Translations under genes and position numbers: made by a program | DNA from: Nitrospira sp. ND1 | GTDB lineage: Bacteria; Nitrospirota; Nitrospiria; Nitrospirales; Nitrospiraceae | Length of the DNA stretch: 64,000 nucleotides | Assembly (NCBI RefSeq): GCF_900170025.1 | Contig: NZ_FWEX01000006.1 | Location: 2,285,625-2,349,624, forward strand | Direction of reading: 5' to 3' | In this document: positions 8,525 through 63,257 of the stretch, one piece after another | How positions within the stretch are numbered: position 1 is the first letter of the stretch | Layout of the letters: each line of letters opens with the position of its first letter | The notes under the pieces: generated by a model | Database searches by the model: none | What the model saw: the letters and a program-made list of their open reading frames with translations, nothing else | What the model was told of the DNA's origin: nothing

Positions 8525-8998
8525 GTGTTTGCACTGGTCTGGATTCACTTGCTGGCGGCCATGGTATGGATCGGGGGGATGGTATTCCTATCCGTCGTGC
8601 TGGTGCCGGTGCTGAAGCGGGATGGGGCATTTGCTCAGTATGCCCTGCTGTTCCGAACGATTGCCTATCGGTTCAGAGCTGTGGTCTGGGGGGCGATGGG
8701 GATCCTGGTGGCCACCGGACTCACGCTGGCTGCAGGTCGATCGATTCCGTTGATGGAACCATCCCGCTGGCCCACGATTTTTGCCGCCAAGATCGGATTG
8801 GTAACGCTGCTATTCACCCTGACGCTGCTGCACGATCTCGTGGTCGGGCCGCGTGTGCGACGGAGCTTGGGAATCCCTGAGGCAGAGCGATCCGCGAGAG
8901 ATCGGGTGCTCCTGCGCTACTCGGTGCTCGTCCCGCGTATTTCGTTACTGGTCGCGCTGCTGGTGCTGTTGCTCGCCGTCGTCCTGGCCCGCACCTAA
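8525..8998 (+). CDS. CopD-like integral membrane protein
   Basis: GTG start with AGGAAGG upstream; 157 residues with four hydrophobic helices. The first contains WIHLLAAMVWIGGMVF, the typical opening of CopD-type copper-resistance membrane proteins and related families with a conserved His and Trp. A further His is in LHDLVVGP. It is likely an inner-membrane copper- or haem-associated protein, but the exact family is uncertain. Its TAA stop coincides with the left end of a palindromic repeat element. Confidence 0.6.
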   Translation: MFALVWIHLLAAMVWIGGMVFLSVVLVPVLKRDGAFAQYALLFRTIAYRFRAVVWGAMGILVATGLTLAAGRSIPLMEPSRWPTIFAAKIGLVTLLFTLTLLHDLVVGPRVRRSLGIPEAERSARDRVLLRYSVLVPRISLLVALLVLLLAVVLART

Positions 8999-9190
8999 CC
9001 CGCATTATTCATGAGCGTTTCTGCTGCAATCGCGGATTCGCAGCTGCGACTAGCCTGTCGGCGGGCGGGCTCGCCGCTCGGTCGGTCGACATCCTGTTCA
9101 AGGATGCCTTCCTCCCTCACGCCTCCGCGCGCCCGTCTCGCTGTGCGACTCCGCACTTTCGCGACGAACCGTCATGAATAATGCGGGCTA
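8996..9190. repeat. MITE-like element A1 (195 bp, TA-flanked)
   Basis: The left terminus TAACCCGCATTATTCATGA (8996-9014) and the right terminus TCATGAATAATGCGGGCTA (9172-9190) are inverted with 18 of 19 matches. The element is bounded by TA at both ends. No coding capacity. Related elements are at 11813 and 33687. Confidence 0.8.
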
Positions 9191-9375
9191 GAAGTTTGTC
9201 CGAGTCACGCCATTCTCCTGCGGCAAACGATCTGCAGCCATCTGTCTCGTTCTCGGCCCGAAAAAATCCTCAACGTATTTCAGCGAGTACGCTTACGGTT
9301 TTTTCGAGCCTGCGGCCTCGCATCTCCCAGCAGCTCCTTCGCCTCGCAACGAAGGATGACTCGGACAGACTCCTA
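9189..9375. repeat. MITE-like element B1 (187 bp)
   Basis: The left end TAGAAGTTTGTCCGAGT (9189-9205) and the right end ACTCGGACAGACTCCTA (9359-9375) are inverted repeats. The body closely matches the element at 33502-33688, which has exactly the same length (shared CATCTCCCAGCAGCTCCTTC and CTCGCAACGAAGGATGACTC). Its left TA is shared with the right end of element A1. Confidence 0.85.
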
Positions 9376-9510
9376 GCAGGAAGATCACAAGGGATAGCTT
9401 CGTCGTTCGTGAAGCGTGTCGTTCGTCTCTCGTGGAAGCGCGGACGGCGTCTGTGAGCGGGCAGCAACGCGGCCACCTGTTTAGAGTGTCGCGCTGCTGC
9501 TGCGCAGTCC
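9376..9510. other. Short intergenic tail with TTCGTGAAG motif
   Basis: It contains GTCGTTCGTGAAGCG (about 9399-9413), resembling the motif at 6386-6408. It separates the repeat pair from the 3' end of the minus-strand sensor gene. No gene seen. Confidence 0.35.
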
Positions 9511-10567: not shown

Positions 10568-11815
10568 ATGGCAAGGGTCGTCATCATCGGTGCGTCCATC
10601 GGCGGGTTGCCGGCAGCCTATGAAGCCCGGGAATTGCTGGCGAAGAAACACAAAGTGACGGTGATCTCCAACGTGGAGTCGTTCCATTTCGTCCCCTCCA
10701 ATCCCTGGGTGGCGGTCGGATGGCGAACGAGGAAAGACATCAGTTTTGCACTGGGCCCTGTGCTGGAGAAAAAAGGCGTGGAATACATTCATGCCATGGC
10801 GGAGCGGATTGAGCCTGAACAGAATCGTGTCATCACCTCGAAGGGCGAAGTCCCCTATGACTACCTGATTATCGCCACCGGGCCGAAGCTGAACTTCGGC
10901 GCGGTGCCCGGACTCGGGCCAAGCGGGTATACGCAATCGGTCTGCAATGTGGACCATGCCGAACAGGCCTGGGGCACCTACCAAGCGTTCCTGAAAGACC
11001 CCGGTCCCATCGTGGTAGGGGCGGCGCAAGGCGCCTCCTGTTTCGGACCGGCCTACGAAATGGCGTTCATTCTGGATGCCGATCTCCGCAAGAAGAAACT
11101 CCGGAAGAAGGTGCCGATCTATTTTGTGACGCCGGAACCCTATATCGGACATATGGGGCTGGCGGGTGTGGGGGCCTCCCGACGCCTGATGGAAGATGAG
11201 TTCGCCGACCATTCGATGAAGCCCATTTGTAATACCGCCATTAAGGAAGTGCAGCCGGGCAAACTATTGCTCGACGGAGGACAGGAAGTCCCGTTCCGGT
11301 ATTCGATGATCATTCCGCCGTTCGCCGGCGTGGATGCGGTGGCAGGGACGCCGGGGCTCTGCAATCCCAAAGGGTTTGTGAATATCGATGCCTATCAAGC
11401 CAATCCCAAGTATAAGAATATCTATTCGGTCGGCGTCTGTGTGGCCATTCCGCCGGTGGAACAGACTCCGATTCCGACCGGTGCGCCTAAGACCGGGTAC
11501 ATGATCGAGTCGATGGTGTCGGCGGCGGTACACAACATCAAGGCCGATATCGAGGATGACCCGAAGCGCGAGACCGCGACCTGGAATGCGATCTGTCTCG
11601 CCGACATGGGGGACACCGGTGTGGCCTTTGTGGCGTTGCCGCAAATGGCACCACGGAATGTCACCTGGGCGAAGAAGGGCAAGTGGGTGCACCTTGCCAA
11701 AATTGCGCTGGAGAAGTATTTCTTGCGCAAGATGAAAAAGGGCGTCAGCGAGCCCTACTATGAGAAGGTGATTTTGAAGGCCCTGGGGATTGCCAAGTTG
11801 GAAGGCCCGGCCTAA
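10568..11815 (+). CDS. sqr: Sulfide:quinone oxidoreductase-like FAD flavoprotein
   Basis: GGGGAGGTGGATC precedes ATG 10568; 415 residues. The N-terminal dinucleotide fold reads VVIIGASIGGLPAAYEA. The pattern LIIATGPKLNF near residue 100, the cysteines at 126, 158 (QGASCFGPAYE) and 343 (CLADMGDTG), and a second Gly-rich region match the SQR family, where two conserved cysteines carry the polysulfide and reduce FAD. The enzyme would oxidise sulfide and pass electrons to quinone at the inner membrane; C-terminal amphipathic helices (LEKYFLRKMKKG) could give membrane contact. The TauE/SafE gene and the downstream sulfur genes fit. Exact SQR type is not determined. Confidence 0.8.
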   Translation: MARVVIIGASIGGLPAAYEARELLAKKHKVTVISNVESFHFVPSNPWVAVGWRTRKDISFALGPVLEKKGVEYIHAMAERIEPEQNRVITSKGEVPYDYLIIATGPKLNFGAVPGLGPSGYTQSVCNVDHAEQAWGTYQAFLKDPGPIVVGAAQGASCFGPAYEMAFILDADLRKKKLRKKVPIYFVTPEPYIGHMGLAGVGASRRLMEDEFADHSMKPICNTAIKEVQPGKLLLDGGQEVPFRYSMIIPPFAGVDAVAGTPGLCNPKGFVNIDAYQANPKYKNIYSVGVCVAIPPVEQTPIPTGAPKTGYMIESMVSAAVHNIKADIEDDPKRETATWNAICLADMGDTGVAFVALPQMAPRNVTWAKKGKWVHLAKIALEKYFLRKMKKGVSEPYYEKVILKALGIAKLEGPA

Positions 11816-12057
11816 CCCGGACTATTCATGAATGCCTGCTCCGTCGTCCGATTCTCTCGCCCGGCGGGGCTGTTCTCGTTCGGCCGCCCGGCCGCCTCAC
11901 CGGCTCGGCGGCGCGCACAGACGTGGCGCTCTTTAGTCATCGCGCCGTGTGCCCTCGACGGACTGTCAGTACGCCTGCGTCGGCCTCGCTCGCGAGAAGC
12001 CCCGGCGGGCTTCGGTCTCGAACGCCTCGCGACGACATTCATGAATAATCCGGGCTA
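11813..12057. repeat. MITE-like element A2 (245 bp, TA-flanked)
   Basis: It begins with the TAA stop codon of the SQR-like gene. The terminal inverted repeats (11813-11834 and 12036-12057) match at 20 of 22 positions; the core is ATTCATGAATG. The interior is shared at both ends with A3 (GCCTGCTCCGTCGTCCG and AACGCCTCGCGACG). No coding capacity. Confidence 0.85.
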
Positions 12058-12107
12058 AACGATATGGAGACGGGGCATCGCGTAGCGAGGATCGACAAGG
12101 AACCGGC

Positions 12108-33396: not shown

Positions 33397-33504
33397 ATGA
33401 ACAAACTGAGTACCATCGTGCCGGTCACGCTGCTGCTGTTGTCGGTCGTTGGCGCAATGGGGGTGATGGTCTTCTGGGGTTTGTCTCTGCTGAATCCATC
33501 TTAG
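33397..33504 (+). CDS. 35-residue single-span membrane peptide
   Basis: AAAGGTGAACGAG precedes ATG 33397. The peptide is MNKLSTIVPVTLLLLSVVGA-like at its start, with one 22-residue membrane helix and a short WGLSLLNPS end. Its TAG stop forms the first bases of repeat element B2. It resembles small accessory peptides that stabilise membrane complexes, but no partner is evident. The strong ribosome site and clean helix make it credible. Confidence 0.55.
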   Translation: MNKLSTIVPVTLLLLSVVGAMGVMVFWGLSLLNPS

Positions 33505-33688
33505 GAGTCTGTCCGAGTAATACCATTCTGCTGCGGCAAACGAGCTGCCGGTATCTGCGTCGTTCTTGGCCCGAAACAATCCTCGACGTATTCCAGCGAA
33601 TACGCCTCCGGATTTTTCGTGCCTGCGGTCTCGCATCTCCCAGCAGCTCCTTCCCCTCGCAACGAAGGATGACTCGGACAGACTCCTA
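33502..33688. repeat. MITE-like element B2 (187 bp)
   Basis: The terminal inverted repeats TAGGAGTCTGTCCGAGT (33502-33518) and ACTCGGACAGACTCCTA (33672-33688) are perfect over 17 bp and bounded by TA. It is a close copy of element B1 with identical length. It shares its right-hand TA with element A3. Confidence 0.9.
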
Positions 33689-33790
33689 TCCCGGACTGTT
33701 CCTGAATGCCTGCTCCGTCGTCCGGTCCTGTCGCCCCGCGGGCCTCGATCTCAAACGCCTCGCGACGGCATTCATGAATAGTCCTGGCTA
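33687..33790. repeat. MITE-like element A3 (104 bp)
   Basis: Left end TATCCCGGACTGTTCCTGAATG-like and right end with CATTCATGAATAGTCCTGGC, bounded by TA. It shares both flanks of the interior with A2 but lacks the middle ~140 bp, so it is an internal-deletion derivative. Confidence 0.8.
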
Positions 33791-33843
33791 GTTAGGGGCT
33801 CGCTTGGCCTTTATCGAGCGGCCGAGCGAAAAGGGGTGACGAC

Positions 33844-63037: not shown

Positions 63038-63052
63038 AAGACTCCTTTCGCG

Positions 63053-63178
63053 ACAGGATGCTGAAAAAGTCCTCCAGCGTCGTTCTCGCAGCGCTCAGAG
63101 GTTCAACGTACGGTCCACAGTACGCTTCGCCTCTTCGCTTGCTGCGGCCTTGCTGGACGGCCTTTTTGAGCATCCTGC
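63053..63178. repeat. Palindromic repeat family C, copy 2
   Basis: The left arm CAGGATGCTGAAAAAG and the right arm CTTTTTGAGCATCCTGC are inverted. The body (GTTCTCGCAGCGCTCAGAGG, TTGCTTGCTGCGG) matches the copy at 26366-26484. It lies between the stress gene and the NTF2-like gene. Confidence 0.85.
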
Positions 63179-63257
63179 GAAGATATTGATCGCTTTCCCA
63201 TACGCCCGGCTCCTCGAGCATGCAGGATCTGCACACAGCCTTTCCGCATCCTGCCTG

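Follow-up and report, generated by a model that had tools for sequence, protein, structure and literature searches.

Short IS1380- and IS1182-type repeats share stop codons with neighbouring genes in Nitrospira sp. ND1

Some short repeats in bacterial genomes begin exactly where a gene ends, which raises the question of whether they have cut the gene short or have a target that leaves its stop codon usable. We addressed this in a 64,000-nucleotide stretch (hereafter the window) of the 4.45-Mb genome of Nitrospira sp. ND1 (G000; G and L numbers denote genomes and loci), for which a preliminary description had reported that three of five A and B repeat elements supply the stop codon of the preceding gene. 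All three cases stand. Bases 8996-8998, TAA, serve as the stop of a CopD-like gene (PF05425; ORF 8525-8998) and are also the three with which element A1 starts; TAA at 11813-11815 ends the ORF of an SQR-like FAD/NAD oxidoreductase (PF07992; 10568-11815) and opens A2; and TAG at 33502-33504 ends an ORF for a 35-residue membrane peptide (33397-33504), with orthologues in G012, G001, G019 and others, and opens B2. These genes, and the element cores described below, all lie on the + strand. B1 (from 9189) and A3 (from 33687) make up the remaining two and do not start at stops, each having inserted into the target duplicated by its neighbour; each of the three independent insertion clusters thus opens at a stop.

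A1 (8996-9190), A2 (11813-12057) and A3 (33687-33790) have a common terminal inverted repeat, TARCCCGSAYTATTCATGA, and B1 (9189-9375) and B2 (33502-33688) have another, TAGGAGTCTGTCCGAGTCA. The two repeats match five and four times in the window, against 0.01 and 0.07 expected from shuffles, and their occurrence there is non-random. The A1 core (8999-9187), placed by its terminal inverted repeats and by genome-wide copies in a 195-bp class of IS1380-type MITEs, is preceded by a left target copy, CTAA (8995-8998), which contains the CopD-like stop and reads CTAG in the empty site of G001. It is followed by CTAG (9188-9191), common to A1 as right copy and B1 as left copy; the B1 core (9192-9372), classed as an IS1182-type MITE by ends that match an IS1182-type element in L091, is closed by a further CTAG (9373-9376). 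The A2 core (11816-12054), from a 179-bp class of IS1380-type MITEs but with ~66 bp extra, lies between direct repeats of CTAA at 11812-11815, which includes the SQR-like stop, and 12055-12058, where empty sites have a single CTAA (G019, G003) or CTAG (G014). The span first given for A2, 11813-12057, was the right element short of one base of each outer target copy. The B2 core (33505-33685), also of the IS1182 type and 88% identical to B1, follows TTAG (33501-33504), which contains the stop of the 35-residue ORF, and shares CTAT (33686-33689), probably a mutated CTAG-type site, with A3, a short (104-bp) A-family MITE whose core (33690-33787) is followed by CTAG (33788-33791).

Beyond the window, searching the genome for the A end by pattern gave 62 matches in forward and 61 in reverse orientation, and the reversed control gave none. 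Paired, the ends delimit 54 transposase-free elements of 32-253 bp, one of them a nested double count. Pooling G000 with two congeners, G028 and G001, gave 133 copies at 116 independent sites. The flanks carry a 4-bp duplication, as in CTAG-CCCG...CGGG-CTAG, TTAA-...-TTAA and CTAA-...-CTAA: in these three genomes CTAG stands on both sides of 58 of the 133 copies and TTAA on both sides of 13, and CTAA or TTAG is repeated directly in 13 and inverted in none. A elements duplicate a 4-bp YTAR, namely CTAG, TTAA or CTAA/TTAG. Duplication of TA only, as reported for IS711 or in TA-target MITEs, was considered and rejected, given that the outer bases vary along with the target and that CTAA, which is not a palindrome, stands as a direct repeat. 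The first proposal, of target choice at stop codons, was therefore essentially the right idea, but the target is the duplicated four-base YTAR and not TA. Minimal elements of 32 bp, barely more than two fused ends, were seen in G000 (L064:2974-3005, L074:3029-3060) and in other organisms (L294, L324, L364, L366), a form expected from deletion between the two copies of a palindrome, TTCATGAA, that the terminal repeats carry at their inner ends.

Orthologous loci that lack the element carry a single YTAR with the stop in place. In G019 and G003 the SQR-like locus reads ...GGC CTAA with the identical C-terminus LEGPA, and the orthologous A2 insertion is shorter in G028 (179 bp) than in G025 (245 bp); in G001 the CopD-like locus reads ...CAC CTAG with the identical C-terminus VVLART. 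C-terminal truncation at A1 and A2, the second explanation in the preliminary description, is ruled out by these element-free orthologues. Searches with joined flanks gave 19 candidate empty sites, about nine of which (A2, A1 and about seven further loci) are clean, with a single YTAR and the stop kept. At L042, one of the clean sites, insertion parted two convergent genes whose stops overlap in TTAA, and each gene retained its TAA.

Intact IS1380-family elements with A-type terminal inverted repeats and YTAR flanks are present in G002 and G014, with transposases that match PF13701 (DDE_Tnp_1_4) at E about 1e-122 to 1e-126; by NCBIfam NF033539 the IS1380 transposase scores 362 bits against a cut-off of 180. 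A ends (19-22 bp) are 84-95% identical to the insertion sequence (IS) ends in L122, L135 and L139, with a somewhat lower match in L123, and 4-bp YTARs flank the ISs in L122, L123 and L135 as they flank the A MITEs. By these ends, the transposase family, the shared duplication and their short (32-245 bp), multicopy, transposase-free form, the A elements qualify as IS1380-derived MITEs. What they have in common with the four ISs sampled is the terminal ~19-23 bp, and no interior similarity to those four was found; hence the A MITEs did not arise from those ISs by recent internal deletion. A search of G000 found no intact IS1380 copy with A ends, and the genome holds a weak PF13701 match (E 2.2e-5) without terminal inverted repeats, so that it is from the relatives that we infer mobilisation of the A elements in trans by an IS1380 transposase. 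Another member of the family, IS1247, makes a 5-bp duplication (PMC3281130), as opposed to 4 bp in A elements, and our literature search found no direct match on IS1380 with CTAG targets or on Nitrospira MITEs.

The B ends (17-23 bp) are 83-94% identical to those of an IS1182-type element of ~1.56 kb in the same genome (G000:C5:412105-413664; L091:2906-4465), which has B ends and CTAG on both flanks, and a similar element with B ends occurs in G028. The transposase frame scores 248 bits with NF033551, under the curated cut-off of 270 and with partial coverage of the profile. In G000 this frame appears interrupted, with an ORF of 342 aa that aligns to profile positions 3-320 of 488. B copies are flanked by CTAG on both sides in several cases and by mutated forms in others. 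From the likeness of their ends to those of this member of the IS1182 family (PF05598, NF033551), the B elements appear to be IS1182-type MITEs with CTAG-like targets, B1 and B2 differing from the family in being ~187-bp derivatives without a transposase. A third repeat family, C, has an end in which CTAG is followed by CAGGATGCGGAAAAAGTCCGCC, and several members stand at gene stops; copies are found at L059:1778, L171:2607, L179:41, L198:2612 and positions 63051-63180 of the window, and in many the opposite end is without CTA.

A YTAR is held in common with a B or C element at 13 of the 116 A sites. Unrelated A, B and C repeats abut on a single YTAR in the window (9188-9191 and 33686-33689) and in L057, L066, L183, L194, L202 and others, as if the duplicated target of each insertion had served the next one. 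In other genomes the CopD stop carries elements that begin like B (L246 in G002, L252 in G015 and L253 in G022), which suggests a single site used repeatedly.

With the A copies tabulated, stops prove to be enriched. In G000, an end lies exactly at the stop of a neighbouring gene in 29 of 53 A copies by a first gene call and in 28 of 53 by a stricter one (gene calls were made with our own hexamer scorer). Across the three genomes, 58 of the 116 independent sites share a stop. If insertions fell evenly on all YTAR sites at stops or in non-coding DNA, the census would give 30.5, and a value as high as 58 did not come up once in 200,000 simulations; none of the 116 sites lies inside a called gene. 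In that census, with YTAR sites drawn from loci picked for carrying elements, the ratio of inserted to unused sites was 62:163 for stops, 10:25 for positions 1-20 bp downstream, 36:346 for those >20 bp away and 8:106 for divergent regions; the stop bin is slightly wider than the strict 58 sites, since it also counts a few genes whose end falls just within an element. Use of stops exceeded that of the remaining sites (P = 1e-8), as did use of the 1-20 bp bin (P = 0.002), and stops and the 1-20 bp bin did not differ (P = 1.0). Separately, the orientation of stop-sharing copies relative to the gene is biased (24:10 in the 179-bp class and 12:4 in the 195-bp class; combined P = 0.014), which the YTAR-target reading does not predict.

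Very probably, then, the A and B elements are IS1380-type and IS1182-type MITEs, respectively; the YTAR duplication of the A elements regenerates the stop codon, and surviving copies concentrate at gene 3' ends. A TAA or TAG stop with C or T in front of it is a YTAR target. Since YTAR is a pyrimidine followed by TAA or TAG, the gene-side copy still reads Y-TAA or Y-TAG after insertion, and the stop and the full protein are kept; convergent genes with stops overlapping in TTAA or CTAG are left one stop each. Insertions within genes and in divergent promoter regions are rare, presumably because they are selected away, and surviving copies for that reason concentrate at or just past gene 3' ends. 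Every insertion also leaves two YTAR copies that later A, B or C elements can enter, which accounts for the abutting A-B pairs in the window. Equal use of stops and of the next 20 bp, with lower use elsewhere, argues against recognition of the stop codon itself, and the simplest reading is that YTAR target choice plus selection sparing 3' ends suffices for the enrichment. We infer that selection, not insertion preference, causes the 3'-end gradient.

A transposase or host factor could instead recognise stops or 3' ends beyond the YTAR, for example through ribosome release, terminated transcription or 3'-end structure. Use of stop sites about twofold above the uniform YTAR expectation would fit such recognition, as would the equally frequent use of sites 1-20 bp downstream and the orientation bias. 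That same equality of stops and neighbouring YTAR sites also speaks against it, depletion in coding and divergent regions is the outcome that selection against harmful insertions would give, and within single intergenic regions the stop excess is not significant (12 observed, 8.9 expected), a comparison with only 19 informative regions that says very little because most regions have one site of the type. On balance, we consider active recognition possible but unlikely. That IS1380-lineage machinery is guided to gene 3' ends beyond the YTAR, with terminated transcription or stalled replication as possible guides, seems to us quite unlikely; if true, such guidance would make stops safe landing sites by mechanism and not only by survival. 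It is very doubtful that the elements are maintained because they act at 3' ends, for instance as RNA hairpins involved in transcript termination or stability. The A2 RNA does fold better than shuffles (z = -4.6), and the orientation bias of stop-sharing copies would suit a transcribed function, but the terminal inverted repeats give a long hairpin in any MITE, close relatives differ in the presence or absence of a copy at one stop, the copies have diverged (median about 84-85% identity to the class reference), and no Rfam family matched in the region.

At B2, the 35-residue gene ends in LLNPS and most relatives are one residue longer, as truncation would have it, but G001 too has the short form, and there another sequence is inserted at the stop, so that truncation is unlikely here as well. 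In the pooled set, 62 genes end exactly on the edge TAR and three end inside an element, at a TGA 17-19 bases in; these three may be truly altered. That the elements generally landed in coding sequence, with their first in-frame TAA or TAG becoming the new stop, is extremely improbable, for although the stop codon that is read does lie in the element, the empty orthologous sites at A1, A2 and several others have an identically placed stop, and random insertion would put one third of gene ends at the edge, spread over three frames (P = 3e-26).

The stop-regenerating YTAR insertion that we favour can be set beside known repeats. BOX repeats of Streptococcus pneumoniae supply the stop to 36 genes, described without good evidence of truncation (PMC3049150), which is the likeness to A elements; they belong to another phylum and a differently named family, the likeness is one of description, and the relevant passages of that source give no explanation by a 4-bp target. 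The termini of GTAG-tagged REPs, mobilised by RAYTs, often give flanking genes a TAG stop (PMC3733652), but REPs are tied to IS200/IS605-type tyrosine (HUH) transposases, whereas the ends of A elements are paired and inverted and their target duplication is 4 bp. With BOX and GTAG-REPs, the supply of stops is a pattern already known for other repeats. The Chunjie MITE of Geobacter uraniireducens (178-235 bp, intergenic, operon undisturbed; PMC10969869) resembles A elements in size, copy number and intergenic placement, as compared by description only. IS711 of Brucella has the same consensus target, YTAR, but is a separate insertion sequence for which duplication of only TA is reported (PMC2266754), against 4 bp in A elements. 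What we add is the A family and its duplicated YTAR, together with the comparison to empty sites and to targets left unused.

Among the matches listed, the exact 19-bp A end occurs in Nitrospirota, Planctomycetota, Myxococcota, Acidobacteriota, Zetaproteobacteria, Gammaproteobacteria and others, and similar ends with YTAR flanks are also found in other phyla. Among the same matches, 24 of 47 end pairs have an open frame of at least 80 codons running to the edge stop, a figure that is indicative and obtained without gene calling. The rule that we propose is simple: a transposon that duplicates YTAR can enter a TAA or TAG stop harmlessly and leaves two new sites for later elements. It explains why repeats can seem to encode gene ends, the abutting of unrelated repeats and the separation of convergent genes, and it warns annotators against taking such gene ends for truncations or gene-repeat fusions. 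Given that A ends occur across many phyla, the rule is widely testable.
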